30,038 bases of DNA from a virus (IMGVR_UViG_3300032282_000444:1-30038); one strand, 5' to 3'; shown: positions 124-24,846, counted from the first letter of the stretch. Made by a program: numbers and translations. The notes: a model not told the origin generated them from the letters alone.

Positions 124-1177
124 ATCTTACTTAGAATATCAGAAAGCAAAATATAAATTACAAAAAAACGAAGAACTAATTGTAAAGAATCTTGAAAAAC
201 AAGATGAACTTGCTTCTAAAATTGCTAAATCTAAAAAAGACGAAGCTAAAGCAAGAAAAGAACAAGCGGATAGTGGCGGTTCAAATGCTATAATGTTAAG
301 AGCAATTAATTCTCAGGTTGAACTTCAAGGAAGATTAAATAAAGAATTAGAAGACGCACAAAAACGTTTTGAATATTATGGTTCAGCAGCAAACAATGCA
401 TCAGCAAAAGTAGACAAACTTACTAATAGCGGAACTAAATATGTTGAGCAAACTAAAGACAAAGTTGATAAGGTAGAAAAAAACAACGACAAAGAATTTG
501 AAAGTTATGATAAATTAGAATATAAAAAAGCTCAGTTATTAAAACATTCAGAACTTACTTTACAAGGACATATTAATGAAACAGTAAAACTTCAAACGGA
601 TGCAGCGGAACACGAATTAGCAATACTTGAAGCTAAAGCAACAAGAGCTGCTCAAATAGATGAAGCATCACATTCTAAAAAAGTAGAATTAGCAAAAGCA
701 GGATTAAGTGCTATTGCACAAATAACAGAACTATTTGGAAAGAAAAGCGAGAAAGCAGCAAAACAAGCATTTAAGATTCAGAAGGCTGCAAATATTGCAT
801 CAGCGTTAGTAACTACTTACCAAAGTGCAACTGCGGCTTACGCTTCTCAATTCACGCCTTTACCTGACCCAAGTTCTCCTGTTCGTGGAGCAATCGCAGC
901 AGGTATTGCAATAGCATCAGGTTTAGCAAATGTAGCTAAAATTGGACAACAAAAATTTGAAGGTGGCGCACCAAGTGGTGGCGGTGGAGGTGGCAATAAT
1001 GCAGGTGGTGGTAGCACTGTTGTATCTCCAAACTTTAACGTGGTAGGTAACTCAGGAATCAATCAGTTAGCACAACTTCAACAAACACCAACGAAGGCTT
1101 ATGTAGTTTCAGGAGATATGTCAACTGCACAAAGTTTAGATAGAAACAGAATTGAAAATGCAACATTAGTCAAATAA
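1..1177 (+). CDS. Tail tape measure protein, C-terminal part (continues from 29272)
   Basis: This is the second part of the gene that starts at 29272. Joined over the circular overlap it gives 606 residues, and window base 2 begins codon 216. The protein sets tail length and is threaded through the tail tube. This part starts with long charged coiled-coil segments rich in Lys, Glu, Ala and Gln. It then has a hydrophobic Ala/Gly-rich stretch (about residues 485-540 of the full protein), a Gly-rich linker (window about 960-1015) and a C-terminal tail ending ENATLVK. At about 606 residues it is a short tape measure, so the tail should be modest. The last codons overlap a putative late promoter for the next gene. 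Recognition rests on length, coiled-coil/hydrophobic layout and position after the tail-tip genes. Confidence 0.85.
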   Translation, partial: TNEGSKERADLIKKINGQYGTTLKNIKDEAKFQESLNKELASYLEYQKAKYKLQKNEELIVKNLEKQDELASKIAKSKKDEAKARKEQADSGGSNAIMLRAINSQVELQGRLNKELEDAQKRFEYYGSAANNASAKVDKLTNSGTKYVEQTKDKVDKVEKNNDKEFESYDKLEYKKAQLLKHSELTLQGHINETVKLQTDAAEHELAILEAKATRAAQIDEASHSKKVELAKAGLSAIAQITELFGKKSEKAAKQAFKIQKAANIASALVTTYQSATAAYASQFTPLPDPSSPVRGAIAAGIAIASGLANVAKIGQQKFEGGAPSGGGGGGNNAGGGSTVVSPNFNVVGNSGINQLAQLQQTPTKAYVVSGDMSTAQSLDRNRIENATLVK

Positions 1178-1188
1178 TTAAGTTTATA
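1160..1188 (+). promoter_or_regulatory. Putative late promoter 1: GCAACA-N14-AAGTTTATA
   Basis: GCAACA lies at 1160-1165 and AAGTTTATA at 1180-1188. The same two blocks with the same 14-nt spacer recur at 1972, 4280 and 24046. The second block ends 4 nt before the ATG at 1193, so GCAACA begins 33 nt upstream of the start codon. The element sits over the last codons of the tape-measure gene. Promoter function is inferred from the fixed geometry. Confidence 0.65.
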
Positions 1189-1192
1189 AATT

Positions 1193-1783
1193 ATGAAAAT
1201 CGTAGAATTAGTAATAGACTCAAAAGATGAATTAAGCGGGATTGACGCAGTTTCTGTAGTTCATTCTCCAGCGATAGAGGAAAACTTTATTTATCTAGCA
1301 AAACACGAAGTAGAGTTAAAAGAAATAGACGCAGAGAAACGCATTCTTATGGGTGCTGCATTAGTTCCTAATAAACAAATCTACAGAGTAAACGAAAAGA
1401 CGAAAGAAGAATACTACATATACTTTTCAGAGGACACAGTTCGTAAAGCATCAGAGTTATTCTTAATGAACTCAAATCAAAACAACGCTACATACGAACA
1501 CGACAAGAAACTGAAAGGAATGTCAGTAGTAGAAAGTTGGATTATTGAAGATTCTAAACAAGACAAGTCAGCTAAATACGGATTTGACTTACCTAACGGA
1601 ACTTGGATGATATCAATGAAGGTAAACAACGAGGAAGTTTGGCAAGATGTTAAAGCAGGTAAAGTAAAAGGATTCTCTATTGAAGGTTACTTCGCTGACA
1701 AGTTAGAAATGTCAATGTTAAGTGGAGAAGATTTATTATTGGAACAAATCAAACAAATAATTATTGAAGATGGCAAAATTTAA
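1193..1783 (+). CDS. XkdF-like putative phage capsid maturation protease
   Basis: This 196-residue protein resembles the XkdF family (putative phage serine protease, Peptidase_S78_2). The matching signature runs from YEHDKKLKGMSVVESW through a GFDLPNGTWM block to KGFSIEGYFADK. His103 and Ser162 lie where the family has its presumed catalytic residues. The N-terminal DAVSVVHSPAIEENFIYL block is also typical of Bacteroidota phage versions. The likely role is cleavage of scaffold and capsid N-termini during prohead maturation, which fits its place ahead of the scaffold-like and capsid genes. The start at 1193 follows a GCAACA-N14-AAGTTTATA element with only 4 nt between. Its stop overlaps the next gene by 14 nt. 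Protease activity is inferred from the family. Confidence 0.82.
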   Translation: MKIVELVIDSKDELSGIDAVSVVHSPAIEENFIYLAKHEVELKEIDAEKRILMGAALVPNKQIYRVNEKTKEEYYIYFSEDTVRKASELFLMNSNQNNATYEHDKKLKGMSVVESWIIEDSKQDKSAKYGFDLPNGTWMISMKVNNEEVWQDVKAGKVKGFSIEGYFADKLEMSMLSGEDLLLEQIKQIIIEDGKI

Positions 1784-1967
1784 AACACCTAGTTACTCTA
1801 GTCCAAAAGGTGGCAAAAGAGGATGTCTGTGCGAAAACGGAAAATACTCATCTAAATGTTGTGATGGTAGTCTTCAAGCACAAGGCATAGGAATGACTAC
1901 AGGAACTGAAAATGTTTCTGTAACAATTAGTTCAGGTACTACATTAATTATTCGTCAAAACGGATAA
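1770..1967 (+). CDS. Small Cys/Gly-rich protein of the head gene cluster
   Basis: This 65-residue protein has its ATG at 1770, overlapping the end of the protease gene by 14 nt; I prefer this start to the TTG at 1764. It opens MAKFKTPSYSSPKGGKRGCLC and has four Cys in a CLC...CC arrangement, then a Ser/Thr-rich tail suggesting beta structure. Small proteins of this look commonly sit at this spot in Bacteroidota phages, but I know no function. The Cys cluster could bind a metal. It may be a minor virion or head assembly component, judged only from its neighbours. Confidence 0.7.
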   Translation: MAKFKTPSYSSPKGGKRGCLCENGKYSSKCCDGSLQAQGIGMTTGTENVSVTISSGTTLIIRQNG

Positions 1968-1971
1968 AAAC

Positions 1972-2000
1972 GCAACAAAGCAAGTATTAACAAGTTTATA
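1972..2000 (+). promoter_or_regulatory. Putative late promoter 2: GCAACA-N14-AAGTTTATA
   Basis: GCAACA lies at 1972-1977 and AAGTTTATA at 1992-2000, with the same 14-nt spacer as the other three copies. This copy lies between genes and is 23 nt from the ATG of the scaffold-like gene, so its transcript would have a real leader, unlike the other three. It would drive the scaffold-like and major capsid genes. Confidence 0.7.
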
Positions 2001-2023
2001 TAATATCTAATTAAAAACAATTT

Positions 2024-2608
2024 ATGAAAAATAGCACAATTAACAAAATCAAAGCACTTCTAGGAATGGAAGTGAGTTTAGAAATGATGAAGTTAGCAGA
2101 CGGAACAACTGTTCTTGAAGCAGACGCATTTGAAATGGACAACGAAGTATTTATCGTTACTCCTGATGAGCAAAAAATTCCTTTACCAATCGGTGAATAC
2201 GAATTAGAGAATGGAATGATTTTAGTAATAGAAGTAGAAGGAATGATTAAAGAAGTTAAAGAAGCTCCAATGGCTGAAGAAGTTATGCCTGAAGATGAGG
2301 TTGCTCCTGAAGTTCCTGTAGCTGCTGCTGAAGAAGTTACTGCACCAAAGAAAACTATCGAATCTGTAGTTAAAGAAACATTCTTTTCAGAAATCGAAGC
2401 ATTAAAAACAGAAAATATTGAATTGAAAGCTAAATTGGAATTGCTTTCTAAAGTTGAAGAAGTTGCAGTTGAAGCAATCGAACTTTCAGAAGAACCAAAA
2501 CCAATTATGCACAATCCTGAAAACACGAAACCAGTAGAGATGTTTAAGTTTGCACAAAACAGAACTAAAACTTCTTTGGATTCAATCTTTGAAAAATTAA
2601 ACAAATAA
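2024..2608 (+). CDS. Putative capsid scaffold protein
   Basis: This 194-residue, strongly acidic protein has a beta-rich N-terminus, a Glu/Pro/Val/Ala low-complexity middle (about 85-110) and a predicted coiled coil (about 118-155). Its C-terminal end (MFKFAQNRTKTSLDSIFEKL) is basic and helical. That acidic and coiled-coil body with a basic helical tail directly before the major capsid gene is the usual form of a phage scaffolding protein. The C-terminal tail would contact the capsid protein, and the upstream XkdF-like protease is a candidate to remove it. I recognise it by composition and position, not by a catalytic motif. A long reverse-strand open frame over it is a coding shadow. Confidence 0.6.
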   Translation: MKNSTINKIKALLGMEVSLEMMKLADGTTVLEADAFEMDNEVFIVTPDEQKIPLPIGEYELENGMILVIEVEGMIKEVKEAPMAEEVMPEDEVAPEVPVAAAEEVTAPKKTIESVVKETFFSEIEALKTENIELKAKLELLSKVEEVAVEAIELSEEPKPIMHNPENTKPVEMFKFAQNRTKTSLDSIFEKLNK

Positions 2609-2633
2609 TATTAACTAACAAACATTTTTTAAA

Positions 2634-3587
2634 ATGGCAACTACAACATCAATTACTACTACTTACGCTGGAGAATTTGCAGGTAAGTACATTGCCGCAG
2701 CTTTATTGTCTGCACCAACATTAGAACAAGGTGGTTTAACTATTCACCCGAATGTAAAATACAAACAAGTTATCCAAAAAGTTGGAACTGACGGAATTGT
2801 TAAAGATGCGTCTTGTGATTTTACTGCAACATCTACATTGACTTTGACTGAGAAAGTTCTTCAACCAGAAGAGTTCCAAGTTAACTTACAATTGTGTAAA
2901 AAAGATTTCCATTCAACTTGGCAAGCTGCTGAAATGGGATATTCTGCATTTGATGTACTTCCTAAATCTTTCTCTGATTACCTTATCGGATATGTTGCAA
3001 ACAAAGTAGCTTCATCTATGGAATCTACAATTTGGACAGGAGTTAACGCTACTGCAGGTCAATTTGCAGGAATTATGACACAATTGACTACAGACGCTGC
3101 TTTACCATCTGCACAAGAAGTTGCAGGTACATCAGTTACTGCTGCTAACGTTGTTGCTCAAATTGGTTCTATTGTTGATGCTATTCCTTCACGTTTGTAC
3201 GGACAACCTGACTTAAAATTGTACCTTTCTCAAAACATCGTTAAAGCATATATTCGTGCTTTAGGTGGATTTGGTGCTTCAGGATTAGGTGCTAATGGTA
3301 CTAACAATCAAGGAACACAATGGTACACAAACGGTAGTCTTTCTTTTGATGGTTTGCCAATCTTTATGGCTAACGGATTAGCTGACAATACAGGTGTTGC
3401 TACTACAACTTCTAACCTTCACTTCGCAACAGGTTTGTTGAACGATATGAACCAAGTTAAAGTTTTAGATATGGCAGATTTGGACGGTTCAGAAAACGTT
3501 CGTGTAGTTATGCGTTTTACTGCAGATGCTAAATACGGATTTGCTGAGGATATCGTTACTTACGGAATCACAAACTCTGCTAACTAA
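2634..3587 (+). CDS. Major capsid protein
   Basis: This 317-residue protein lies between the scaffold-like gene and a strong terminator. Its Thr/Ala-rich N-terminus, the KVLQPEEFQVNLQLCKKDF block (about 80-98), the central amphipathic region and the C-terminal RVVMRFTADAKYGFAEDIVTYG strand resemble major capsid proteins of Flavobacterium and Bacteroides siphophages, which are thought to adopt the HK97 fold. Codon use is more regular than in the early genes, as expected for the most expressed virion gene. The dedicated terminator just downstream and the putative late promoter at 1972 would give a short, abundant scaffold-capsid transcript. The HK97 fold is inferred. Confidence 0.85.
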   Translation: MATTTSITTTYAGEFAGKYIAAALLSAPTLEQGGLTIHPNVKYKQVIQKVGTDGIVKDASCDFTATSTLTLTEKVLQPEEFQVNLQLCKKDFHSTWQAAEMGYSAFDVLPKSFSDYLIGYVANKVASSMESTIWTGVNATAGQFAGIMTQLTTDAALPSAQEVAGTSVTAANVVAQIGSIVDAIPSRLYGQPDLKLYLSQNIVKAYIRALGGFGASGLGANGTNNQGTQWYTNGSLSFDGLPIFMANGLADNTGVATTTSNLHFATGLLNDMNQVKVLDMADLDGSENVRVVMRFTADAKYGFAEDIVTYGITNSAN

Positions 3588-3606
3588 TATTAACAGACAT
3601 TAATTT

Positions 3607-3636
3607 AAAGGGGAGGTCAAATGCCTTCCCTTTTTT
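3607..3636 (+). terminator. Intrinsic terminator after major capsid gene
   Basis: A 10-bp stem (3607-3616 with 3624-3633, one G-U pair) encloses a 7-nt loop and is followed by a T run. It lies 20 nt after the capsid stop codon. No promoter motif is seen before the next gene at 3662, so that gene probably depends on read-through. Confidence 0.85.
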
Positions 3637-3661
3637 GTTTCACTTAAAAAATATATAAAAA

Positions 3662-4225
3662 ATGGCTTGTGATATTGCAAATGGTAGATTAGAAGTATGT
3701 AAAGATGCCATCGGTGGCATTGATGCAATCTACTTTATCAACTTCGGAGATTACGTTTATCCAACGGATGTGGCTTATGTAGCATCTACGGACACTATTG
3801 ATACAATTGCTAACGTATCAACACTTTACAAATTTGAATTGAAAGGTACAAATACTTTCGACCAAGTAATTACTTCTTCTCGTGAGAACGGAACATCTTT
3901 TGTAGAGCAAACACTTTCAGTTACGCTTAAAAAACAAGATGCTGCTACACACAAATTAGTTAAATTATTGTCTTACGGACGTCCTAACATCGTAGTTAGA
4001 AATCGTAACAATCAGTTTTTCTTAGCAGGACTTGAATACGGAATGGAGTTAACTACTGCAAATGTTTCTACAGGTACTGCAATGGGAGATATGAATGGTT
4101 ACACATTGACATTCGTAGGAGCTGAGAAATTGTTAGCTAACTTGTTAGATGCTTCTTCAGAAGCTGACTTAACAGGAAGTGCTGGAGATGTATTCGGAGT
4201 AACGACAACAATCGTATCTGCATAA
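3662..4225 (+). CDS. Putative major tail tube protein
   Basis: This 187-residue protein lies between two intrinsic terminators, like the capsid gene before it, which suggests abundant expression. It has regularly alternating strands and the segment VEQTLSVTLKKQDAATHKLVKLL (about 81-103). A second block, FLAGLEYGMELTT...MGDMNGYTLTFVGAEK (about 119-155), resembles tail tube proteins annotated in Bacteroidota siphophages. The protein would polymerise around the tape measure. No enzymatic motif is seen. The tail tube call rests on fold-like features, size and placement, and it could be another abundant structural protein. Confidence 0.65.
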   Translation: MACDIANGRLEVCKDAIGGIDAIYFINFGDYVYPTDVAYVASTDTIDTIANVSTLYKFELKGTNTFDQVITSSRENGTSFVEQTLSVTLKKQDAATHKLVKLLSYGRPNIVVRNRNNQFFLAGLEYGMELTTANVSTGTAMGDMNGYTLTFVGAEKLLANLLDASSEADLTGSAGDVFGVTTTIVSA

Positions 4226-4249
4226 TAGATTCTTTTTCATAGTTTGATT

Positions 4250-4275
4250 AGGGGTGGCTTCGGTTACCCCTTTTT
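4250..4275 (+). terminator. Intrinsic terminator with UUCG tetraloop
   Basis: A 9-bp stem (4250-4258 with 4263-4271, two G-U pairs) is closed by a C(UUCG)G tetraloop and followed by a T tract. It lies 25 nt after the tail tube stop and directly before the late element at 4280, so it separates two late transcription units. Confidence 0.88.
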
Positions 4276-4279
4276 ATTT

Positions 4280-4308
4280 GCAACAAAAACGTATTATTTA
4301 AGTTTATA
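4280..4308 (+). promoter_or_regulatory. Putative late promoter 3: GCAACA-N14-AAGTTTATA
   Basis: GCAACA lies at 4280-4285 and AAGTTTATA at 4300-4308, with the same 14-nt spacer. It starts 5 nt after a terminator's T tract and ends 4 nt before the ATG at 4313. The terminator-promoter-gene order makes a promoter role the most natural reading. Confidence 0.75.
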
Positions 4309-4312
4309 ATGT

Positions 4313-4645
4313 ATGATAGTATTAACACCTTCTACATCAGCTCAGACTTTTTCGTTTATTCCTCGATTTGAGAATTACACAACGATGGCAATAACTGACG
4401 AACAAACAAATGTAACTACAACAGTTGCTATTACAAGTTCAACTCAAAGTGGCTATGTAAATAAGATAACTGCAACATTTGCTTTGAAAAACAATCACAC
4501 CTATACACTTTTACTAAGTGCAGGTTCTACTATCTGTCATAAGGATAAAGTTTTCTGCACAAATCAAAACATCGCAGACTTCTCTGTAAATAACGGAACA
4601 TATACTTCTAACGCTACCACAAACACTTTCATAGTTTATGAGTGA
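4313..4645 (+). CDS. Hypothetical structural protein, beta-rich
   Basis: This 110-residue Thr/Ser/Asn-rich protein has alternating hydrophobic residues consistent with an all-beta fold. It opens MIVLTPSTSAQTFSFIPR and includes two Cys in an ICHKDKVFC segment (near 73-81). Similar 110-130-residue proteins occur next to portal genes in Bacteroidota phages, but I know no assigned role. It could be a head decoration or minor tail protein. Its start is 4 nt from a late promoter element and it overlaps the portal gene by 8 nt, suggesting coupled translation with the portal. Confidence 0.65.
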   Translation: MIVLTPSTSAQTFSFIPRFENYTTMAITDEQTNVTTTVAITSSTQSGYVNKITATFALKNNHTYTLLLSAGSTICHKDKVFCTNQNIADFSVNNGTYTSNATTNTFIVYE

Positions 4646-6413
4646 TAACTTACATATACTGAGCTTAAGTGCTTACACAACGCCTACAATCCAAGAATCT
4701 AAAAGAGAAAATTGGGTTGAGTATGGTGAAGACAATAACTACTATTCTTTTTTGATAGATAGATACACGAACTCTACTACAAATAATGCTATTATAAACA
4801 ATATTAGCAGACTTGTTTATGGAAAAGGACTATCTGCTTTAGACGCTAATCGTAAGCCTTCTGAGTATGCTCAAATGATGGCATTGTTTAGCAAGGATGA
4901 TATTCGTAAAATGGTATTAGATAGAAAGATGTTAGGTCAATTTGCTATCCAAGTACATTATAACGATAAACACGATAAAATTTTAAAGGCGTATCATATG
5001 CCAGTGAACTTAATTCGTGCTGAGAAATGTAATAAAGACGGAGAAATTGCAGGATATTACTATTCTGACGATTGGACAGATGTTAAGAAATTTAATCCTG
5101 TTCGTTATTCTGCGTTTGGTATGTCAAAAGATAAGGTAGAGATTCTATTCTCTAAACCTTATTCGGTTGGAATGAAATACTATTCTTATCCTGACTATCA
5201 AGGTTCAGTTCCATATGCACTTTTAGAAGAAGAAATTGCAGATTACTTGATAAACGAAGTACAAAACGGATTCTCAGGAACTAAAGTAGTCAACTTTAAC
5301 AACGGAGTGCCTACTGAAGAACAACAAGCAATGATTACTTCTAAAGTAATGAATAAGCTAACAGGTTCTAGAGGTCAAAAAGTTATCGTAGCATTCAACG
5401 ACAACTCGGAATCAAAGACAACTGTTGATGATATTCCTTTAAATGATGCTCCTGAACACTACACATACTTATCAGAGGAATGTTTACGTAAGATTATGTT
5501 AGGTCATAACGTGACTTCTCCACTATTATTTGGAGTTGCTAGTTCAAATGGATTCAGTTCTAATGCAGACGAGCTTAAAAACTCTGCTATCTTGTTTGAC
5601 AATATGGTTATTCGTCCAATGCAAGAGGAGTTATGTGAAGCATTCGATGAGATTTTATCATTTAACGGAATCAGTTTAAAACTATTCTTTAGAACATTGC
5701 AACCTTTAGAGTTTACAGACCTTGAAAACACGCAAACTGCAGAACAAGTAGTTGAAGAAACAGGAACAGACGGAACTGCTTTAAGTAAAATAGACAAGCA
5801 AATTGCAGATGCATTAATTGAATGTGGTGAAGTAGTAGATGAAAATTGGATATTGATTGATGAGTTTGAAGTTGATTACGACCAAGAAGATGAAATTGAC
5901 TTAGAGATTGAAAATGCAAACAATAAAAAACAATCTTTATTGTCTAAAATCTACAATTTTGTAAGCACTGGAACTGCTAATCCAAGAGCTAAATCAGAAC
6001 AAGATGCAGTAGTTGATGGATTCAAGTTCATCACAAGATATCGTTACGAAGGTGGCGTAAAAGACAACACAAGACCATTTTGCAGAAAGATGGTTGCTGC
6101 TAATAAAGTATATCGCAAAGAAGATATTATTAGAATGGGTTCTCAAGTAGTCAACGCAGGTTGGGGTGCTAGAGGAGCTGACACATACGACATATTCCTT
6201 TACAAAGGTGGAGGTGCTTGTCATCATAAATGGATGCGTCAAACATTTGTAGCATTTGAACAAGGACGAGGAATAGACCCATTAAGTCCTAATGCAAAAA
6301 CAATCAGTACAAACAAAGCAGAGAAAGCAGGTTATCGTGTTAGGAATCCACAAGAAGTTGCGATGCGTCCTGTAGATATGCCGAATCAAGGATTTTTACC
6401 TAAAAACAATTAA
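4638..6413 (+). CDS. Portal protein with C-terminal MuF-like extension
   Basis: This 591-residue protein forms the ring through which DNA enters the head and which docks terminase and tail. Residues about 1-380 read as a portal: an N-terminal YGEDNNYYSFLIDRY segment, a helical stem region, and a TSPLLFGVASSNGFSSNADELKNS block (about 294-317). An acidic linker (about 360-440) follows. Residues about 448-591 form a separate Cys/His-containing domain, with RPFCRKMV (Cys482), a GWGARGADTYDIFLYKGG segment and CHHKWMRQTF (Cys528, His529, His530). This is the pattern of MuF-type minor head proteins, normally a separate gene after the portal. No separate MuF gene is present here. The portal call is firm; the MuF assignment is by motif. 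Confidence 0.85.
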   Translation: MSDNLHILSLSAYTTPTIQESKRENWVEYGEDNNYYSFLIDRYTNSTTNNAIINNISRLVYGKGLSALDANRKPSEYAQMMALFSKDDIRKMVLDRKMLGQFAIQVHYNDKHDKILKAYHMPVNLIRAEKCNKDGEIAGYYYSDDWTDVKKFNPVRYSAFGMSKDKVEILFSKPYSVGMKYYSYPDYQGSVPYALLEEEIADYLINEVQNGFSGTKVVNFNNGVPTEEQQAMITSKVMNKLTGSRGQKVIVAFNDNSESKTTVDDIPLNDAPEHYTYLSEECLRKIMLGHNVTSPLLFGVASSNGFSSNADELKNSAILFDNMVIRPMQEELCEAFDEILSFNGISLKLFFRTLQPLEFTDLENTQTAEQVVEETGTDGTALSKIDKQIADALIECGEVVDENWILIDEFEVDYDQEDEIDLEIENANNKKQSLLSKIYNFVSTGTANPRAKSEQDAVVDGFKFITRYRYEGGVKDNTRPFCRKMVAANKVYRKEDIIRMGSQVVNAGWGARGADTYDIFLYKGGGACHHKWMRQTFVAFEQGRGIDPLSPNAKTISTNKAEKAGYRVRNPQEVAMRPVDMPNQGFLPKNN

Positions 6414-6415
6414 CA

Positions 6416-10526: not shown

Positions 10527-10534
10527 TATATTTG
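10527..10534 (+). promoter_or_regulatory. Possible -7 box TATATTTG right after the late operon
   Basis: TATATTTG matches TAnnTTTG and a TTG lies at 10501-10503 (23-nt spacer). A transcript from here would be only about 50 nt before the terminator at 10562. It may be a chance match in A+T-rich DNA. Confidence 0.25.
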
Positions 10535-10561
10535 CATCTCATAGTTATTTGGTTTTAAATT

Positions 10562-10589
10562 AGGGGTATCGAAAGGTACCTCTTTTTTT
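10562..10589 (+). terminator. Intrinsic terminator ending the late region (GAAA tetraloop)
   Basis: A 9-bp stem (10562-10570 with 10575-10583, two G-U pairs) with a C(GAAA)G loop is followed by a run of T to 10589. It lies 35 nt after the metallophosphoesterase stop and would block late transcription from entering the convergent repressor-like gene. Confidence 0.88.
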
Positions 10590-10601
10590 GTCCCCAATTT
10601 A

Positions 10602-10672: not shown

Positions 10673-11215
10673 TTACCTTTTACGTGCCACTTCAATAGTG
10701 CTACCAAAAATATGTAATACTTCAAATAACCCATCCAACATAATATTTGTTTTACCTTGTTCAATTTTACGAATCACTTTTAGTGATATACCAAATCTTT
10801 CAGAAAATTCGGGTTGAGTCATTTTAATTTGTTTTCTTTTTTCTTTAACAAAATTGGCTATTTTTAGCATATCGAATCCATCGTCATCTGATAGAATTTG
10901 TTCTAAATTAGGACTGATTAATAAAGGACTTATTAAAATACTATTTAACAAATAAGCACCATTATTTAATTCTTTTTGAATCCAATATCTTTCTCTTGTA
11001 TCTATATCATCATTTATATTTAAGTATTCCAATACATCAACTATTGGACAATGTCCTATTTGTTTAAGTTCATTTACCCATTGATTAATCTTATCAGAAT
11101 GACTTTGTTTAATGTGCTGTAAAGGACGTGTCATTCCTTGAGTAGATTTACCTATATAATGTATTGAATTTGTGAATGGGCATTTTAATGCGTAAATTAA
11201 TCTTTTAGCTTCCAT
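10673..11215 (-). CDS. GIY-YIG nuclease-like domain fused to Xre-type HTH, possible phage regulator
   Basis: This is the only minus-strand gene. I take the ATG at 11215 (180 residues), because the GIY-YIG fold begins there (LIYALKCP, then HYIGKS at about 19-24); a longer frame from 11257 adds 14 unlikely residues. Arg30, Glu75 in TRERYWI and Asn91 fit the domain's usual conserved positions. Residues about 123-170 form a helix-turn-helix (MTQPEFSERFGISLKVIRKIEQGK) like HipB/Xre regulators. A DNA-cutting or DNA-binding module joined to an operator-binding module, lying between late and early regions, suggests a repressor or a self-limiting nuclease. Its A+T content looks higher than its neighbours'. 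The function is inferred. Confidence 0.75.
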   Translation of the reverse strand: MEAKRLIYALKCPFTNSIHYIGKSTQGMTRPLQHIKQSHSDKINQWVNELKQIGHCPIVDVLEYLNINDDIDTRERYWIQKELNNGAYLLNSILISPLLISPNLEQILSDDDGFDMLKIANFVKEKRKQIKMTQPEFSERFGISLKVIRKIEQGKTNIMLDGLFEVLHIFGSTIEVARKR

Positions 11216-11234
11216 ATTTATATCTGTTATAGTA

Positions 11235-11242
11235 TAAAGATA
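11235..11242 (-). promoter_or_regulatory. Possible -7 box for the minus-strand regulator
   Basis: On the minus strand this reads TATCTTTA, one base from TAnnTTTG, and with its 3' flank (TAC) it resembles the boxes at 13329 and 17777. It lies 19 nt upstream of the ATG at 11215. No good -33 TTG is seen at normal spacing. Confidence 0.35.
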
Positions 11243-11291
11243 CAAAATTGAATCCAATTTCTATATATAAGCACCCTATCGGGTACGTTTT

Positions 11292-11355: not shown

Positions 11356-11386
11356 TTTGCTAGTTAAGAAATAGTATTTATATTTG
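11356..11386 (+). promoter_or_regulatory. Early promoter: TTTG-N19-TATATTTG
   Basis: TTTG at 11356-11359 and TATATTTG at 11379-11386 match the Bacteroidota -33 and TAnnTTTG -7 elements with a 19-nt spacer. The predicted start site, near 11390, gives a leader of about 33 nt before the ATG at 11423. It would drive the whole early operon. Confidence 0.75.
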
Positions 11387-11965: not shown

Positions 11966-11966
11966 G

Positions 11967-13328: not shown

Positions 13329-13336
13329 TATCTTTG
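13329..13336 (+). promoter_or_regulatory. Promoter -7 box TATCTTTG
   Basis: TATCTTTG matches TAnnTTTG and continues as TACA, like the boxes at 11379 and 17777 (TAtMTTTGTAYA). The -33 region is weak (no TTG at 17-23 nt). Transcription would start near 13341, about 90 nt before a terminator. Confidence 0.5.
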
Positions 13337-15356: not shown

Positions 15357-15607
15357 GAAAGGAACACAAACTAGTTGCACTATGTGCAGTATTACCTGTG
15401 TTAGCAGATTGGATTGAAGACCTAAACGACCAAACTGTGTTTAAACGAGATTTGAAACGTAAAGCAAATATGCTTATGCAGGAAATAAGAAGGGTAGACA
15501 ACCAAGTTTTACAGGTATACGGAGAGAACCGAGAGGAAATCTACAATCAACAGGTAGACTTGCAGATTAGATTCCGTCAATTTGTAGAATCAATAATTGT
15601 AGACTGA
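15353..15607 (+). CDS. Hypothetical helical protein
   Basis: This 84-residue, almost entirely helical protein has a hydrophobic N-terminal stretch (LVALCAVLPVLADWI, about 7-21) and then charged helices rich in Arg, Gln and Glu. It overlaps both neighbours (ATGA and TGATG). The N-terminal stretch is interrupted and more likely a buried helix than a membrane span. Function unknown. Confidence 0.65.
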   Translation: MRKEHKLVALCAVLPVLADWIEDLNDQTVFKRDLKRKANMLMQEIRRVDNQVLQVYGENREEIYNQQVDLQIRFRQFVESIIVD

Positions 15608-15978
15608 TGAAAGTAGTTTTTTATGATATCCCTGAAAAAGTGGAAGTAAGAAAAAATACTTGCGACATAAAAGAGTTTCAATTATTTTTAAAAATGCATA
15701 AAAAAATAACTATTAAAGAAATATCAAATGCTTTAAATATTTCAAAAACGGAAGTAGAACATTGGTTTAGAACTGATAATTATTTTGCTATTCCAAACAA
15801 AGATATATGGATTGAATTAAAAAATATATTAAAAATTGAATCAAATAAATATGATGCTTTTGTAACCGAATTTATAATTCAAGATGGAGTACACGAACAA
15901 TCAAACCGAGTTTACGATATAAATGGAATTGCTCCAACTATAACTTCAACAGGTGCAGATATTAGAATAATATTATAA
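15607..15978 (+). CDS. HTH protein with a C5-methyltransferase-like C-terminal segment
   Basis: This 123-residue protein has a probable helix-turn-helix at about 34-56 (ITIKEISNALNISKTEVEHWF). Its last about 25 residues (SNRVYDINGIAPTITSTGAD) read like the conserved RVYdxdGIaPTIt segment found in the target-recognition/C-terminal region of many cytosine C5-methyltransferases. A complete methyltransferase gene follows 9 nt later. It may regulate that gene, or be a remnant joined to an HTH by recombination. Its base composition is visibly more A+T-rich than the upstream genes, suggesting separate origin. No catalytic motif is present. Confidence 0.6.
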   Translation: MKVVFYDIPEKVEVRKNTCDIKEFQLFLKMHKKITIKEISNALNISKTEVEHWFRTDNYFAIPNKDIWIELKNILKIESNKYDAFVTEFIIQDGVHEQSNRVYDINGIAPTITSTGADIRIIL

Positions 15979-15987: not shown

Positions 15988-17259
15988 ATGAAAAAAATTA
16001 AAGTAGGATCAGACTTCTCTGGAGTTGGTGCATTTGACCAAGCTCTAAAGCGTTTAGGGGTAAACTATGAAACTGTGTTCGCCTGTGATATGGATAAGTA
16101 CGCAAGAGATACATTCATCCACAACTACGGAGAGCCAAAATACTATCCAACGAATGTTTATGACCGAGAGATTCCAACTGAGTCACTTGACATTTATATG
16201 ACATCTCCTCCTTGTCAAGCATTCTCATTAGCTGGAAAGCGACTTGGTAAGGATGATAAAAGAGGTGTATTGTTTTTTAACTCACACGAATTCATTCAAG
16301 TAAACAAACCTCGCTTTTTTATATTTGAGAACGTCAAAGGATTGCTTTCAGATGATGGAGGAAAAACATTTCAAGAATGGATCAATATGTTAGGAGGTAA
16401 ATCAGTAAACGGACTACCTGTGTTGTTTGCTCACGATGATGCAGTTCCTTATCACTTGTATTGGAAAGTTTTAAATGCAAAGCATCACGGTGTTCCACAG
16501 AATCGAGAGAGAGTTTTCTTGATTGGCATCAGAGATGATAAAGACAATAATTTTCAGTATCCAAGAGAAGAACATTTGATGAAAAGATTGAAAGATGTAT
16601 TAGAAGAAGAGATATTTGAAAAATATTATTTGAGTGATGAACGTATTGGAACAATTACAAATGCAGAACGTGGTATTGGATGGACTGATGCAGACACAAA
16701 AAATACTGCTAATTGTGTTCTTACAGGTTACGCAAAGAATCCAACTGATGGTGAATATTTAAAAGTTAAAAGTAATTTGGAAAAGTATTTTTTGAGTGAA
16801 AAGATGTTAGAATTGATTACATTCCAAGAAAAAACGAACGGAGAAATAGCAAATCTAAACAAAGGTGGGGAACGTGGTTCTGTATATGATTCAAATACTG
16901 ATTCAATAAGCTGTTTAAGTGCAACTGATTACAAACAACCAAAACAAATTTTAATAAATTCAGCAACATCTAAAGGATATGAGGAAGCAAGAGAAGGTGA
17001 TTCAATAAACTTTAGTGTGCCAAATAGCGAAACACGAAGAGTAGGTAAGGGAGTAGCACAAACATTAGATACAGGATGCAATCAAGCAACAATGGATGGA
17101 TTCAGGATCCGCAGATTAACACCAAGAGAATGCTTTCGACTAATGGACTTCCCTGATTCATTTACTTGGAACGTAAGCGACTCTCAAGCATACAAACAAG
17201 CAGGTAATTCAATCGTAGTTAACGTACTATACAAAATATTAAAACAATTGCCATTATGA
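15988..17259 (+). CDS. DNA cytosine C5-methyltransferase (orphan)
   Basis: This 423-residue enzyme has the ordered C5 motifs: I (GSDFSGVGAFDQAL, 7-20), IV with catalytic Cys76 (SPPCQAFS), VI (ENV, 114-116), VIII (QNRERVF, 171-177), IX (RRLTPRECFRLMDFP, about 375-389) and X (QAGNSIVVN, 404-412). The target-recognition region lies between about 185 and 370 and is more A+T-rich, consistent with exchange of specificity. It transfers a methyl group from SAM to cytosine in phage DNA, probably to evade host restriction; no partner endonuclease is seen. It overlaps ninG as ATGA. Confidence 0.93.
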   Translation: MKKIKVGSDFSGVGAFDQALKRLGVNYETVFACDMDKYARDTFIHNYGEPKYYPTNVYDREIPTESLDIYMTSPPCQAFSLAGKRLGKDDKRGVLFFNSHEFIQVNKPRFFIFENVKGLLSDDGGKTFQEWINMLGGKSVNGLPVLFAHDDAVPYHLYWKVLNAKHHGVPQNRERVFLIGIRDDKDNNFQYPREEHLMKRLKDVLEEEIFEKYYLSDERIGTITNAERGIGWTDADTKNTANCVLTGYAKNPTDGEYLKVKSNLEKYFLSEKMLELITFQEKTNGEIANLNKGGERGSVYDSNTDSISCLSATDYKQPKQILINSATSKGYEEAREGDSINFSVPNSETRRVGKGVAQTLDTGCNQATMDGFRIRRLTPRECFRLMDFPDSFTWNVSDSQAYKQAGNSIVVNVLYKILKQLPL

Positions 17260-17776: not shown

Positions 17777-17784
17777 TATCTTTG
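17777..17784 (+). promoter_or_regulatory. Promoter -7 box TATCTTTG
   Basis: TATCTTTG followed by TATA matches the Bacteroidota -7 box and the boxes at 11379 and 13329. It lies 22 nt upstream of the ATG at 17807, just after ninG. The -33 element is weak. It would restart transcription of the recombination genes. Confidence 0.6.
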
Positions 17785-17965: not shown

Positions 17966-17971
17966 CAAAAA

Positions 17972-17997: not shown

Positions 17998-18015
17998 ATA
18001 TTTAAACAAATCACT

Positions 18016-19746: not shown

Positions 19747-19752
19747 ACACGG

Positions 19753-19947: not shown

Positions 19948-19987
19948 GTGGCAATTTTTACCACATATCTTAAATAGAAATGATAAC

Positions 19988-20004
19988 TAAACAACAAGAA
20001 CAAT
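19988..20004. repeat. 17-bp direct repeat, left copy
   Basis: TAAACAACAAGAACAAT at 19988-20004 is identical to 20218-20234, 230 bp away. This copy ends inside the start codon of the gene at 20003, and the other ends inside that gene's stop codon, so the pair brackets the gene. Confidence 0.8.
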
Positions 20005-20236: not shown

Positions 20237-20257
20237 TAACAATTAAATAAACATAAA

Positions 20258-20497: not shown

Positions 20498-20718
20498 TGT
20501 ACGTTGATGAGGGAGGATTGCGAAAGCAATTAGAGATGTTGCTTCGTACCAAAACACGAAACCAAATTGTGCAAGAGATAAAATCAAACACAGGAAGATT
20601 CCATCAATACCAAATAGATAAATTCTTACAAGGAAAAGATGTAACACTTTGCACGGTAATAAAGTTAGACAACTACGTTAGCCGAGAGATTTACTTAAAC
20701 GATTTAGAGCCACTTTAA
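20497..20718 (+). CDS. Putative small HTH DNA-binding protein
   Basis: This is a 73-residue, mostly helical protein. The segment TRNQIVQEIKSNTGRFHQYQIDKFLQGKDVTLCTVIKLDNYV (in parts, about 20-61) has the spacing of a Cro/Xre-like helix-turn-helix. It is the last gene before the early terminator, whose stem overlaps its final codons. It might regulate the early-to-late switch, as the sigma gene follows. The assignment is tentative. Confidence 0.5.
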   Translation: MYVDEGGLRKQLEMLLRTKTRNQIVQEIKSNTGRFHQYQIDKFLQGKDVTLCTVIKLDNYVSREIYLNDLEPL

Positions 20719-20732
20719 TCAGTGGCTTTTTT
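20708..20732 (+). terminator. Intrinsic terminator ending the early region
   Basis: A perfect 7-bp stem, AGCCACT (20708-20714) with AGTGGCT (20721-20727), encloses a 6-nt loop and is followed by a T run to 20732. The left arm includes the last codons of the upstream gene. It separates the early operon from the sigma-factor gene. Confidence 0.88.
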
Positions 20733-20746
20733 ATTGTTAATAACTT

Positions 20747-20781
20747 TTTGGCAACGTGATTAGATTTTCATCGTAAGTTTG
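20747..20781 (+). promoter_or_regulatory. Promoter of the sigma-factor gene: TTTG-N23-TAAGTTTG
   Basis: TTTG (20747-20750) and TAAGTTTG (20774-20781) fit the host -33/-7 pattern with a long 23-nt spacer. The same stretch has GCAACG (20751) and AAGTTTGA (20775), close in sequence but not spacing (18 rather than 14 nt) to the late elements. It could be a mixed promoter allowing self-activation. Confidence 0.55.
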
Positions 20782-20796
20782 ATTAGAAATTAATCA

Positions 20797-21324
20797 ATGG
20801 AACTACTAAACGAAATATCAAAGCAGCATAATGAATGGCTAAAAATAGTCAGGACATTTGGATGTGAGTTCCCTGAAGATGTTGTTCAAGATGCTTATTT
20901 ACGGATTCATAAGTATGGCAATGCAGATAAACTTATAATCAACGGAGAGATAAACAAGTTAATTATGTGGACAATCTTGAGAAACGTATCTCACGACACC
21001 AACAAAGCTAACAAAATAGAGTTTATATCATTAGAGGATGTTTGGAATATACAAGACACCAGTGAGGATTTGGATAAGCACGAAGCATTAAGCAAGGTAG
21101 ATAAGTTGATTGAGTTAGAGTCATTGACTTGGCATCATTACGACAAGATGCTATTTGATTTGTACAGAAAAACGGAACTATCAATGCGAGAAATAGCAGA
21201 AGCTACTAACATACATTACACTTCTATCTTCCATACATTAAAACGATGTAAGCAAAGACTACAAGAAGCAGTAGGTGAAGATTATCAAGATTATTTAAAC
21301 GAAGATTTTGAACTAATAAAATAA
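20797..21324 (+). CDS. Phage RNA polymerase sigma factor (ECF-like sigma-70)
   Basis: This 175-residue protein has region 2-like sequence (FPEDVVQDAYLRIHKYGN, about 25-42, and a conserved MWTILRNVSHD helix, about 57-67), an acidic linker, and a region 4 helix-turn-helix (LSMREIAEATNIHYTSIFHTLKRCKQRL, about 128-155). It has its own promoter, lies just after the early terminator and is the first gene before the packaging and tail genes. I infer that it directs host polymerase to the late GCAACA-N14-AAGTTTATA elements. The sigma fold is well supported; the target is not proven. Confidence 0.8.
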   Translation: MELLNEISKQHNEWLKIVRTFGCEFPEDVVQDAYLRIHKYGNADKLIINGEINKLIMWTILRNVSHDTNKANKIEFISLEDVWNIQDTSEDLDKHEALSKVDKLIELESLTWHHYDKMLFDLYRKTELSMREIAEATNIHYTSIFHTLKRCKQRLQEAVGEDYQDYLNEDFELIK

Positions 21325-21327
21325 AAA

Positions 21328-21714
21328 ATGGAAAAACGAACAACAAAAAAGAAAGCAACAGGATTAGGAGATACAATCGAACAAATCACAGAAGCAACAG
21401 GAATTAAAAAGCTAGTTAAGTTTATTGCTGGAGATGACTGTGGATGTGATGCACGTAAAGTAAAGCTGAATGCCTTATTTCCGTACAATAAACCTGAATG
21501 TTTAACAGAAGTAGAATATAACTATTTAAACGAAACACAAGTATTATTTAAAAATTCAATCAAACCTTCAGAACAAGACGAAATATTAAAGATTTACAAC
21601 AGAACGTTTAAAGTAAGACAAGAGCCTACATCTTGTGCTAGTTGCTTACGTGAAATCGTTGTAAAGATGCAACAAGTATTTAACGAATATAAAGACGAAG
21701 ATGCCAATTCCTAA
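21328..21714 (+). CDS. Hypothetical Cys-containing protein
   Basis: This 128-residue protein has a Lys/Thr-rich start, a DDCGCDARKVKLNALFPYNKPEC block (about 36-58) and a later TSCASCLRE block (about 101-109). The two CxC/CxxC pairs could form a zinc site. Similar proteins occur before terminase genes in Bacteroidota phages; the function is unknown. It lies 3 nt after the sigma gene and overlaps the HAD gene by 14 nt. Confidence 0.65.
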   Translation: MEKRTTKKKATGLGDTIEQITEATGIKKLVKFIAGDDCGCDARKVKLNALFPYNKPECLTEVEYNYLNETQVLFKNSIKPSEQDEILKIYNRTFKVRQEPTSCASCLREIVVKMQQVFNEYKDEDANS

Positions 21715-22135
21715 ACCAACATCAGGAGAATCAGAAACAGACTTTCTAAAAAGATGTATGTCTGACAATGTAATGGTAAGTGAATACGATGCAGCACAAC
21801 GCAGTGCAATTTGTCGCACCAGTTACACAGAGAAACTTGCAGGAGAAAAGATATCGTTTGATTACGATGGAACATTCTCAACTATGAAAGGATTTGATAG
21901 AGCAGTCAATCTTATTCAATCCGGTGCAGATGTGTATATAATTTCAGCAAGAGATTCAAAAGACGGAATGTTAGTAAGAGCTAATAAAGCAGGAATACTT
22001 TTCTCTAGAGTTTATGCCACTGGAAGTAACGAAGCAAAAGTTGAAAAAGTTAAAGAATTAGAAATTGCAGTACACTACGACAACAATCAAGACGTAGTTA
22101 ATCAACTTCCAAACATAGGTAGACTTTTTAAATAA
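21701..22135 (+). CDS. HAD-like phosphatase with phage N-terminal motif
   Basis: This 144-residue protein has two parts. Residues 1-42 (MPIPKPTSGESETDFLKRCM, then AQRSAIC) match a short motif seen at the N-terminus of several phage head proteins. Residues about 50-144 form a compact HAD-like domain: DYDGT with Asp54/Asp56, ISAR (81-84), Lys113/Lys116 and HYDNNQDV (125-132). The HAD domain would hydrolyse a phosphate ester, perhaps a nucleotide or DNA 3' or 5' phosphate; the substrate is unknown. The cap domain is essentially absent. It starts within the preceding gene. Confidence 0.75.
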   Translation: MPIPKPTSGESETDFLKRCMSDNVMVSEYDAAQRSAICRTSYTEKLAGEKISFDYDGTFSTMKGFDRAVNLIQSGADVYIISARDSKDGMLVRANKAGILFSRVYATGSNEAKVEKVKELEIAVHYDNNQDVVNQLPNIGRLFK

Positions 22136-22141
22136 AAACAA

Positions 22142-22330
22142 ATGGGGTATTATCTAGTTGACTACGGAAAAGAACTGATTGCGGAAGCAAATCTTCTTAC
22201 AGACCACCTTACTGCTCAAGGGCATCACTACGTGGTTTACTTGACCAATGCAGATGGATTAATGTGCGTAGAGGAAATAGATGAGGACGAATTTTTAAAC
22301 CACTTTAAAAACAACCAAAACACGAAATAA
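22142..22330 (+). CDS. Hypothetical protein (62 aa)
   Basis: This 62-residue acidic protein opens MGYYLVDYGKELIAEANLL and reads as a small alpha/beta fold (GHHYVVYLTNADGLMCVEEI). It lies between the HAD-like and small terminase genes, with 6 and 3 nt spacing. It is unrecognised. Confidence 0.6.
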   Translation: MGYYLVDYGKELIAEANLLTDHLTAQGHHYVVYLTNADGLMCVEEIDEDEFLNHFKNNQNTK

Positions 22331-22333
22331 GAA

Positions 22334-22744
22334 ATGGCAAAAGTAGGAAGACCAAGAAACCTAGATTCACCAGAACAACTAAGTGAACTATTCGACAAGT
22401 ACAAAGCAGACGTAAAAGCGAATCCAAGAATAAAAAGCGTATTCGGAGGAAAGGAATTTGAAGAGAGAGCAGAGCCACTAGAAAGACCTCTAACACTAGA
22501 AGGATTTGAATTGTTTTGCTACGATGAAGTAGGAATAGTAGAACAATATTTTAAGAATACAGACAAAAGATACAACGAATTTGTACCTATCTGTACACGT
22601 ATAAGAAAAGCAATACGTCAAGACCAAATCGAGGGAGGTATGGTAGGACAGTACAATCCTTCCATTACACAACGTCTGAATGGCTTAACTGAGAAAGTTG
22701 AAAGCACGATTATAACAGAGCAACCATTGTTCCCTGAGGAGTAA
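22334..22744 (+). CDS. Terminase small subunit (gp3-like DNA packaging protein)
   Basis: This 136-residue protein matches the DNA-packaging gp3-like family. It opens MAKVGRPRNLDSPEQL, then has PLTLEGFELFCYDEVG (about 52-67), YFKNTDKRYNEFVPICTRI (about 72-90) and the C-terminal DQIEGGMVGQYNPSITQRLNGL (about 96-117). It would bind the packaging site and regulate the large subunit encoded next, 2 nt downstream. The N-terminal GRPR-like basic start may contact DNA. Confidence 0.87.
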   Translation: MAKVGRPRNLDSPEQLSELFDKYKADVKANPRIKSVFGGKEFEERAEPLERPLTLEGFELFCYDEVGIVEQYFKNTDKRYNEFVPICTRIRKAIRQDQIEGGMVGQYNPSITQRLNGLTEKVESTIITEQPLFPEE

Positions 22745-22746
22745 GT

Positions 22747-23907
22747 ATGTTTAAAAGAACAACTGCGATAAATAAGATTCTTTCGTTAAAAAAACGGATT
22801 AAGATAATTCAAGGAGGAACATCAGCAGGAAAGACATTCGGAATACTACCTGTGTTGATAGACAAGTGTGCTAAAGAACCAAACCTAGAAGTATCTGTTG
22901 TAGCTGAATCAATTCCTCATTTAAGAAGGGGAGCGTTAAAAGACTTTATCAAAGTGATGAGGTGGACAGGTAGATACAATGATGACCGATTTAATAAGAC
23001 ACTTTTAAGATACGAGTTTGGCAACGGATCAGTAATGGAGTTCTTCTCAGCAGATGATGCATCTAAACTTAGAGGAGCAAGGCGTGATATCTTATACATC
23101 AACGAGTGTAACAACGTGAGCTTTGAATCTTACAACGAGCTTTCTATTCGTACCAAGAGAGAAGTATTCTTAGACTTTAATCCTGCGAATGAGTTTTGGG
23201 TACACAAAGAACTAAAAGACGAACCTGACTCAGACTTTATAATCTTAACATACAAGGACAACGAAGCTCTTGATGAATCAATCGTATCTCAAATAGAAAA
23301 GAATCGTGAGAAAGCAGCAACGTCATCTTACTGGGCAAATTGGTGGAGAGTTTATGGACTAGGAGAGATAGGAAGTTTAGAAGGCGTAATCTTTAACAAC
23401 TGGAAAACGATTGACACAATACCAAGCGATGCTAAGTTGATAGGAATAGGATTAGACTTTGGATACACGAACGACCCTACCTCAGCAATAGAAATCTATA
23501 ATTACAACGGACAAAGAATCATAAACGAGATTTGTTATCGTACAGGAATGGTAAACTCTGACATTGCAAAAGTGCTCCCAAATAGTGTAACAATTTACGC
23601 AGATAGCTCAGAGCCTAAATCAATCGAGGAGATCAGACGTTTCGGAAAGATGATTAAAGGCGTAACCAAAGGAGTGGACTCAATCAAGTTTGGAATAGAT
23701 GTAATGCAACGACAAGAATACTTAGTTACTTCGCAAAGTACAAACCTAATCAAAGAGCTGAGAAGCTATTGTTGGAGCTTAAAGAAAGACGGAGAGAAAA
23801 CAAACGTACCTATTGACCATTACAACCACGCTATTGATGCATTAAGATATCACGAGATGGAAACACTAGGTTTAAAAAAGAACTATGGACAATACAACAT
23901 CAGATGA
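22747..23907 (+). CDS. Terminase large subunit
   Basis: This 386-residue protein is the packaging motor. The ATPase half has Walker A at 23-30 (GGTSAGKT) and Walker B at 114-120 (DILYINE), and a coupling-type FLDFNPANEFW segment (141-151). The RNase H-like nuclease half has Asp237 (GLDFGYTNDPT), Asp286 (YADSSEP) and Asp364 (HAIDALRY), the expected acidic triad. It is full length for a compact siphophage terminase. It follows the small subunit directly and overlaps the next small gene. Confidence 0.95.
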   Translation: MFKRTTAINKILSLKKRIKIIQGGTSAGKTFGILPVLIDKCAKEPNLEVSVVAESIPHLRRGALKDFIKVMRWTGRYNDDRFNKTLLRYEFGNGSVMEFFSADDASKLRGARRDILYINECNNVSFESYNELSIRTKREVFLDFNPANEFWVHKELKDEPDSDFIILTYKDNEALDESIVSQIEKNREKAATSSYWANWWRVYGLGEIGSLEGVIFNNWKTIDTIPSDAKLIGIGLDFGYTNDPTSAIEIYNYNGQRIINEICYRTGMVNSDIAKVLPNSVTIYADSSEPKSIEEIRRFGKMIKGVTKGVDSIKFGIDVMQRQEYLVTSQSTNLIKELRSYCWSLKKDGEKTNVPIDHYNHAIDALRYHEMETLGLKKNYGQYNIR

Positions 23908-24067
23908 TTTACCGATGATGCAAAGAGTAGTTGAAGACTACATCTATCAGCGTACAGGAAAACGAATCAGAATAGTATTTGATGACGTTATGCAAATCAG
24001 AAGACACTTCCAGATGTTGACTGCAGCATTCGACATTATCGTAGTGCAACAAAACAAGAACAAATAA
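23885..24067 (+). CDS. Hypothetical protein overlapping terminase (60 aa)
   Basis: This 60-residue protein, MDNTTSDDLPMMQRVVEDYIYQRTGKRIRI..., begins inside the terminase gene. The helical opening and the FDIIVVQQNK end are typical of a small conserved protein in Bacteroidota phages; the role is unknown. Its last codons carry the GCAACA block of the late element at 24046. Confidence 0.6.
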   Translation: MDNTTSDDLPMMQRVVEDYIYQRTGKRIRIVFDDVMQIRRHFQMLTAAFDIIVVQQNKNK

Positions 24068-24074
24068 GTTTATA
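24046..24074 (+). promoter_or_regulatory. Putative late promoter 4: GCAACA-N14-AAGTTTATA
   Basis: GCAACA lies at 24046-24051 and AAGTTTATA at 24066-24074, with the 14-nt spacer shared by all four copies. The second block ends 4 nt before the ATG at 24079. It would drive the tail genes. Confidence 0.7.
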
Positions 24075-24078
24075 TATT

Positions 24079-24846
24079 ATGAAGTTAGAAATCAACGTAC
24101 CTTCTTCCCTAAGTGAAATACCTTTAAAACACTACCAAGAGTTTCTTAAAATTCAGGCAGATTCCAACGATGAGGAATTTGTCGCTCAGAAGATGATTGA
24201 AATCTTTTGTGGTATAACACTAAAGGATGTCGTTAAAATGAAGCTAACGAGCTTAAATGAGCTAATAGGACACTTCACAAAGTTATTTAGTGAGAAACCT
24301 AAGTTCCAAAATAGATTTAAGATAAAAGCAGGAGAAGGAGAGATTGAGTTTGGATTTATTCCTGAGTTAGAGGAGATAAGTTTTGGTGAGTATGTAGATT
24401 TAGAGAATCATCTTACAAGTTGGGATAACTACCACAAAGCAATGGCAGTTATGTATCGTCCGATTGTGAAAACACGAAAGGATAAATACGACATAATGCC
24501 TTACGAACCAAACAAAGACTTCCAAGAGTTAATGAAGTTTGCTCCACTGGATGTAGTGCTAGCAAGTTCGGTTTTTTTTTGGAGTTTAGGAAAAGAGTTA
24601 TTGCAGGCTACCCTGAATTATTTAGAGAAGGAGATGAAGAAGGACAGGAAACTATCAACGACTTTTCAGAAACAACTCAATTTGCAAAACGATGGGGATG
24701 GTATCAATCAATATATGGACTCGCTAAAGGAGACGTTACAAAGTTCGATGCAATTACCGAGCTTAGACTTACTAAATGTCTTACCTATCTCGTCTTTGAA
24801 AAGCAAAAAAACGATATTGAAAGAAGACAATTTGAACGTAATTTAA
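24079..24846 (+). CDS. Tail assembly chaperone, unshifted product
   Basis: This 255-residue product, MKLEINVPSSLSEIPLKHYQEFL..., shares residues 1-167 with a second product made by a -1 frameshift at the U9 run (24572-24580). The shared part is a helical/beta domain typical of tail chaperone G-like proteins, which bind the tape measure before tail assembly. The unique C-terminal 88 residues (SLGKELLQ..., GDGINQYMDSLKETL) end 8 nt before the stop of the overlapping frame. The gene has its own late promoter element. The chaperone call is by architecture and position. Confidence 0.72.
   Translation: MKLEINVPSSLSEIPLKHYQEFLKIQADSNDEEFVAQKMIEIFCGITLKDVVKMKLTSLNELIGHFTKLFSEKPKFQNRFKIKAGEGEIEFGFIPELEEISFGEYVDLENHLTSWDNYHKAMAVMYRPIVKTRKDKYDIMPYEPNKDFQELMKFAPLDVVLASSVFFWSLGKELLQATLNYLEKEMKKDRKLSTTFQKQLNLQNDGDGINQYMDSLKETLQSSMQLPSLDLLNVLPISSLKSKKTILKEDNLNVI
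24572..24580 (+). other. U9 slippery sequence for -1 frameshift
   Basis: The zero frame reads GTT TTT TTT TGG, which contains the heptamer T TTT TTT in the correct register (24573-24579). Slipping one base back continues as TTG GAG TTT in the frame that ends at 24854. No base run of this length is seen elsewhere in the tail genes. Confidence 0.75.

Follow-up and report, generated by a model that had tools for sequence, protein, structure and literature searches.

Putative late promoters set at a fixed distance from the start codon, and a phage-encoded ECF-like sigma factor, in a group of Bacteroidota phages

Phage-encoded sigma factors that serve late promoters are already known from phiEco32 and 7-11 (PMC8948821). 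The sigma factor of Salmonella phage 7-11, SaPh711_gp47, acts with host polymerase at a bipartite motif (GTAAtg-16-aCTA) before late genes; in related phages the promoters stay in place, and their motif and the sigma factor diverge together. In phiEco32, gp36 has its own middle and late promoters, which consist of a single element (tAATGTAtA), and gp36 lacks homology to region 4. Phage T4 divides the task between two proteins, with gp55, a small late-gene sigma factor ending in a conserved acidic/hydrophobic tail, docking like sigma-2, gp33 mimicking sigma-4, and the sliding clamp activating (PMC2988020). For host genes, a CGT-box ECF-type promoter motif, SM6, has been described in Flavobacterium psychrophilum, a host whose mRNAs are mostly leadered (PMC9723704).

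Here we analyzed a stretch of viral DNA of 30,038 nt, referred to throughout as the window. The contig is complete and circular (~29.9 kb), with a 123-bp direct repeat at 1-123 and 29916-30038 and a tape measure gene that spans the join; neither Rfam families nor tRNAs were found in the window. It contains exactly four exact copies of the element GCAACA-N14-AAGTTTATA, at 1160, 1972, 4280 and 24046, all on the + strand. An earlier note, made from the sequence alone, had reported these copies and their constant 14-nt spacing, and the exact and one-mismatch searches bear this out, no site with a single mismatch being present in the contig. Taken by itself, AAGTTTATA occurs on the + strand only at the four element sites and nowhere on the - strand. 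Searches allowing three mismatches were unselective (7 sites versus 2.9 expected), and hence only exact copies are counted within the window. A two-mismatch match at 20999, which lies within the sigma gene described below and has no gene start after it, was taken as a coding coincidence. Dyads with 15 fixed positions recurred no more than twice in any of 80 Markov-simulated genomes; here one recurs four times, in keeping with the earlier judgment that chance recurrence is very unlikely.

The first predicted promoter (1160-1188) comprises a -35 element, GCAACA (1160-1165), 14 nt, and a -10 element, AAGTTTATA (1180-1188); its predicted +1 is A1193, the A of the ATG of the head maturation protease gene (1193-1783, + strand). 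The second (1972-2000) lies 5' of a scaffold-like gene and the gene for the major capsid protein (2634-3587, + strand; assigned by position and by a match to the virion structural protein family phrog_1623), which is followed by an intrinsic terminator at 3607-3637 (+ strand). This is the leadered copy, its ATG (2024) being farther off than those of the other three and its predicted +1, A2005, lying 19 nt upstream of that ATG. The third (4280-4308; predicted +1, A4313) directly follows a strong intrinsic terminator on the + strand (~4250-4279; -16.3 kcal/mol, z -4.0), as had been noticed earlier, and precedes gene 4313 and the portal gene (4638-6413, + strand). The fourth (24046-24074; predicted +1, A24079) is located inside the 3' end of gene 23885 and 5' of gene 24079 (24079-24846, + strand). 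Thus, three copies end 4 nt upstream of an ATG (1193, 4313, 24079), with GCAACA starting 33 nt upstream, and two (1160 and 24046) overlap the gene before them at its 3' end, both as originally described. The accompanying claim that the copies stand before late genes holds for the protease, for the scaffold-like gene and capsid, and for the small gene followed by portal; the label of tail chaperone for gene 24079 is putative and was not confirmed, as the gene matches a PHROG without function.

Just upstream of the terminase genes, whose large subunit (22747-23907, + strand) falls between it and the fourth promoter, is an ORF (20797-21324, + strand) that escaped the first inspection. It encodes an ECF-like sigma factor of 175 aa, with sigma-2 at residues ~1-72, a linker, sigma-4 at ~109-158 and a conserved acidic/aromatic C-terminal tail. 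The ORF matches PHROG sigma factor families, and phrog_1740 was matched in 28 of 29 relatives. Against TIGR02937 (sigma70-ECF), the protein scored 31.4 bits (1.3e-7), below the cut-off of 42.9, and a clade-B relative reached 41.5 bits; E-values for the sigma70-ECF superfamily ranged from 1e-7 to 1e-10, with scores under its cut-off. Because the curated cut-off is not reached, we call the protein ECF-like and assign it to no named ECF group. Its AlphaFold model (pLDDT 79.6; pTM 0.42, so that the two sigma domains are loosely placed and their relative orientation is uncertain) has as best PDB matches the ECF factors sigma-E, AlgU, SigW, SigL and SigH (whole-length E ~1e-3 to 1e-2), and region 4 of the model fits the sigma-E/-35 DNA structure 2h27 (TM 0.75-0.78). 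The protein has the two-domain layout of ECF factors, with sigma-2 and sigma-4 separated by a short linker and no sigma-3, and along its length the model can be fitted to sigma-E, AlgU and SigW; phmmer searches of the PDB gave chance matches only. ECF promoters carry an AAC-bearing -35 element and a -10 element about 16-18 nt further on. The elements in the window likewise contain AAC in the -35 block, with ~20 nt from the AAC core to the GTT core, counted from first base to first base.

Of 30 related contigs, 29 carry a homologue of the sigma factor, and the remaining one is a fragment. A single-sequence tblastn search of INPHARED phages gave no match for it, while the sigma profile did find gp33 of Nonlabens phage P12024S. 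Of the matches from a scan of genome contigs, one was convincing (L224, 37%), on a short contig of a Bacteroidetes MAG, and the others were weak, so that no firm host emerges; judging from the relatives, the host is probably a flavobacterium. After sigma-4, the family shares a nearly invariant tail, GEDYQDYLNxDFELI (window 21277-21321), which is less strict in genomes found through the capsid. This conservation is inflated, as EDYQDYLN served as a search word and only the capsid-found genomes are unbiased. The tail may be likened to the acidic/hydrophobic clamp-binding tails of T4 gp55 and gp33.

We compared the upstream regions of orthologous genes in the 30 related contigs. The elements recur at the protease junction, on the scaffold side, and before genes 4313 and 24079, with a few gaps (G010 lacks the element at gene 4313, and G012 and G013 lack it at gene 24079). 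Conservation at the same gene junctions had been proposed beforehand as one test of the promoter reading, and the motif is indeed kept there. In clade A (the window and G001-G003), it is nearly unchanged, and it is also the top de novo dyad in close relatives. In other clades, positions are kept and the sequence is altered, to CGTTTWA in clade B, AAAGTTATTA in clade C and TTGTTTTTA in G008, each variant being largely common to the sites within one genome; in clade G (G022, L110-L140), -10 sites with AAGTT and CGTT are mixed in one genome. Clade matrices gave 26 forward and 0 reverse sites in 4 clade-A genomes, and 45 and 1, respectively, in 7 clade-B genomes. For clades F, G and I, there were too few sites to obtain a motif model. 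Phage FPSV-S2 of F. psychrophilum (terminase 54%) showed no sigma match and, by eye, no such motif; it is a weak control, having gone unmatched in the capsid search.

In the relatives, a change in either promoter half goes with a change in the corresponding part of the sigma protein. Among 33 distinct sigma/site pairs at gene 24079, type-A sigma-2 goes with AAGTT in 10 and type-B sigma-2 with CGTT in 22, with none discordant (Fisher 1.6e-8). Hence sigma-2 type predicts -10 class in 32/32 classifiable pairs; the unclassified L327 reads CGTC. Sigma-4 type similarly goes with the first base of the -35 element, A-type with G (13) and B-type with A (12), again with 0 discordant (25/25), eight intermediate sigma-4 types being left unclassed in this comparison. 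At the gene 24079 junction, the change from G to A is a synonymous one in gene 23885 (GTG to GTA). All three of the combinations A2/A4, B2/A4 and B2/B4 are found. In the natural domain swaps (G004, G005 and L014), sigma-2 is 36-38% identical but sigma-4 91%; their -10 elements have switched, and their -35 element is GCAACA wherever it was read at the junctions of the protease gene and gene 24079. At these two junctions, GCAACA falls within coding sequence and is in part constrained by the encoded protein. In G004, the site before gene 4313 has AAAACG as its -35 element despite an A-type sigma-4. A sigma-2 loop at ~residues 41-53 differs between clades, and inspection of it gave no simple residue rule for A versus C before GTT.

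In the tree (77 rows) built for the gene that follows the site, the -10 class shows at least 12 changes on supported branches, which indicates that the -10 element does not simply follow the descent of that gene. Five independent sigma-2 switches are accompanied by a -10 switch. G016 and G021 have capsids 94-95% identical to that of the window and yet B-type -10 elements, while G001 and G002, with capsids at 72-74%, are of A-type. One caveat here is that the sign test on independent pairs had just 5 of them to draw on; almost every random pairing gave agreement (p 0.0625), but so small a number does not reach significance by itself, and hence shared descent is incompletely excluded. On contig G018, the fragment without a sigma gene, the 24079 orthologue (L196/L197) is preceded by an A-type -10 and an ACAACA -35. 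From these half-sites, the sigma-2 of the missing G018 factor is predicted to be of A-type and its sigma-4 to be non-A.

Among distinct upstream sequences, the G of the -10 GTT core is positioned at exactly -11 relative to the ATG in 39/44 for the protease gene, 41/44 for gene 4313 and 22/38 for gene 24079. In capsid/scaffold controls, -11 is not among the common GTT positions. Were transcription to start 11 nt after the G of GTT, the first transcribed base would be the A of AUG. Where a scaffold-side site has no ATG next to it, the predicted +1 is still A, and across the whole scan, chance coding matches included, A is found at this position in 34 of 43 cases. In one conserved promoter, the triplet at +1 is ATG in L105, and L110 has ATA there and an ATG further on. 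The distance from the element to the start of transcription is 6-9 bp in phage 7-11 (PMC8948821); counted from the GTT core, should this be where the element ends, it would place the start at about -3 to +1 of the ATG here. On these observations, it is likeliest that the late mRNAs are leaderless or near-leaderless, starting at the AUG or within ~3 nt of it at three of the four sites. Such messages are rare in the likely hosts, making up 5.5% of mRNAs in F. psychrophilum (PMC9723704).

In Bacteroidota, the -7 box TAHHTTTG spans -12 to -5, with G virtually absent at -10/-9 and a final G nearly always present (PMC6847099). The late sites read AAGTTTATA, with G where the host has none and A in place of the final G. 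Intergenic TAHHTTTG boxes on the + strand are seen at 10527, 11379, 13329 and 17777, in or near the early block and at none of the late gene starts. The box at 11379-11386 (TATATTTG) precedes the early gene block, that at 13329-13336 (TATCTTTG) falls in the early region, and that at 17777-17784 (also TATCTTTG) precedes gene 17807. This distribution fits a scheme in which host sigma-A would serve the early genes and the phage sigma factor the late ones.

Several other features of this part of the genome were seen. At 10527-10590, a host-type box (TATATTTG) comes right after the stop of gene 9489, with an intrinsic terminator ~30 nt on; both are kept in about a dozen relatives, the hairpin sequence varies, and there is no Rfam match. 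The pattern is as for a short RNA (~50-60 nt). The sole likely minus-strand gene (10673-11257), placed between the late and early blocks, encodes a GIY-YIG nuclease-like domain and an HTH_3 DNA-binding domain. Gene 15607-15978 has an HTH-like N-terminal part and a C-terminal stretch, NRVYDINGIAPTITSTGA, that resembles a cytosine methyltransferase signature; it is followed, at 15988, by a full methyltransferase-like gene.

Could the four elements be variant host sigma-A promoters, perhaps aided by a phage activator that binds GCAACA? The sequence TAAGTTTA, found in three copies, is one base from TAnnTTTG, the reason given in the earlier note for its alternative of a modified host promoter, and its spacing to the gene suits a -7 box. 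However, those copies carry G at -10/-9, where host boxes almost never do, and lack the nearly constant final G (PMC6847099). Moreover, the sister group has CGTTTAA at the same places, with a CGTTT that no longer resembles the host box; sigma-2 of the phage and the -10 type vary together with no discordant case, and host-type boxes sit upstream of early genes instead. We regard this explanation as very unlikely. The fixed distance of the AAGTTTATA block from the ATG might also be expected of an element acting in translation initiation or mRNA stability rather than as promoter DNA, particularly as Bacteroidota use Kozak-like sequences (PMC6847099). Yet both blocks and their spacing are kept in the scaffold-side copy, far from any ATG, two sites have their upstream block within the preceding gene, and such a role leaves the co-variation with sigma unexplained; we consider it extremely improbable.

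A different question is whether sigma-dependent promoters are present but transcription starts farther inside or upstream, giving leadered mRNAs or use of a later start codon. The exact start of such promoters varies by a few nt, as with the 6-9 bp of phage 7-11 (PMC8948821), but that range past the GTT core coincides with ~-3 to +1 of the ATG. That the -11 spacing stays fixed in diverged phages and before unrelated genes, and that A is retained at +1, points to the AUG itself, and we think displaced starts unlikely.

We therefore favor the reading in which the four elements are late promoters read by the phage-encoded ECF-like sigma factor, and hold it to be highly likely. The product of 20797-21324 is very probably their reader, as judged from its sequence and co-variation with the elements. 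The junction conservation and the sigma co-variation also lend support to the earlier proposal of a phage-specific class of late promoter with near-leaderless mRNAs. In outline, host sigma-A RNA polymerase would first transcribe the early block from TAHHTTTG promoters. The phage sigma factor would then bind the host core enzyme and direct it to GCAACA, via sigma-4, and to AAGTTTATA, via sigma-2. Starts at the A of AUG or within ~3 nt of it would generate (near-)leaderless late mRNAs at three of the four sites, to be translated as such, and the scaffold-side promoter would keep a short leader.

More broadly, it seems probable that in this group of Bacteroidota phages the late promoters have become tied firmly to the start codon, with an ECF-like sigma factor and mainly leaderless mRNAs in hosts that rarely use them, and that sigma domains have been exchanged as modules, each with its own half-site at the late promoters throughout the genome. 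The analysis offers a readable transcription programme for an uncultured phage family and a rule to predict late genes from sequence. The natural series of sigma factors, with matched -10 and -35 elements that switch separately, is material for an ECF recognition code and a possible source of orthogonal promoters in Bacteroidota. Should the late mRNAs prove leaderless, the question arises of why these phages would depend on them when their hosts have no Shine-Dalgarno initiation and seldom use such mRNAs.

The window resembles phage late sigma systems of the 7-11 and phiEco32 kind in encoding a sigma factor and having putative cognate sites before late genes. As in T4, a small phage sigma factor is linked to late genes, except that one protein carries both domains. 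Unlike SM6 sites, the elements precede phage genes and have AAGTTTATA as their -10. The phage is not phiEco32-like, as the motif differs and the best relatives of its capsid, protease and terminase are Bacteroidota phages; the two systems probably share a phage sigma factor with promoters of its own, but in the window a -35 element and sigma-4 are present and co-vary. The cultured relative P12024S (protease 46%, capsid 30%) has a sigma gene at the same place, just upstream of terminase (gp33, annotated Sigma-70 region 2; profile E 8e-9), and GTT at -11 in 6 of 45 forward gene starts (0.9 expected), most with AAAACAA upstream of a CGTTAATA-like core. It differs in this motif (AAAACAA-N-CGTTAATA-like) and in a sigma factor without the conserved tail; no transcription study of it was found in the literature searched. 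Nor did the open-licence literature yield a paper on a fixed promoter/start-codon junction or modular sigma-domain exchange in Bacteroidota phages. The closest parallel is 7-11, an unrelated phage of another host phylum with a different motif, which would share the use of a phage sigma factor with host polymerase, and shares the bipartite sites before late genes and the conserved positions with diverging motifs; the available text on 7-11 (PMC8948821) describes neither a leaderless arrangement nor naturally occurring swaps of sigma domains. The system would work like that of 7-11, although the phage lies outside that group, and it differs in that promoter and start codon are joined at a constant distance and that sigma domains are exchanged as modules, each along with the half-site that matches it.
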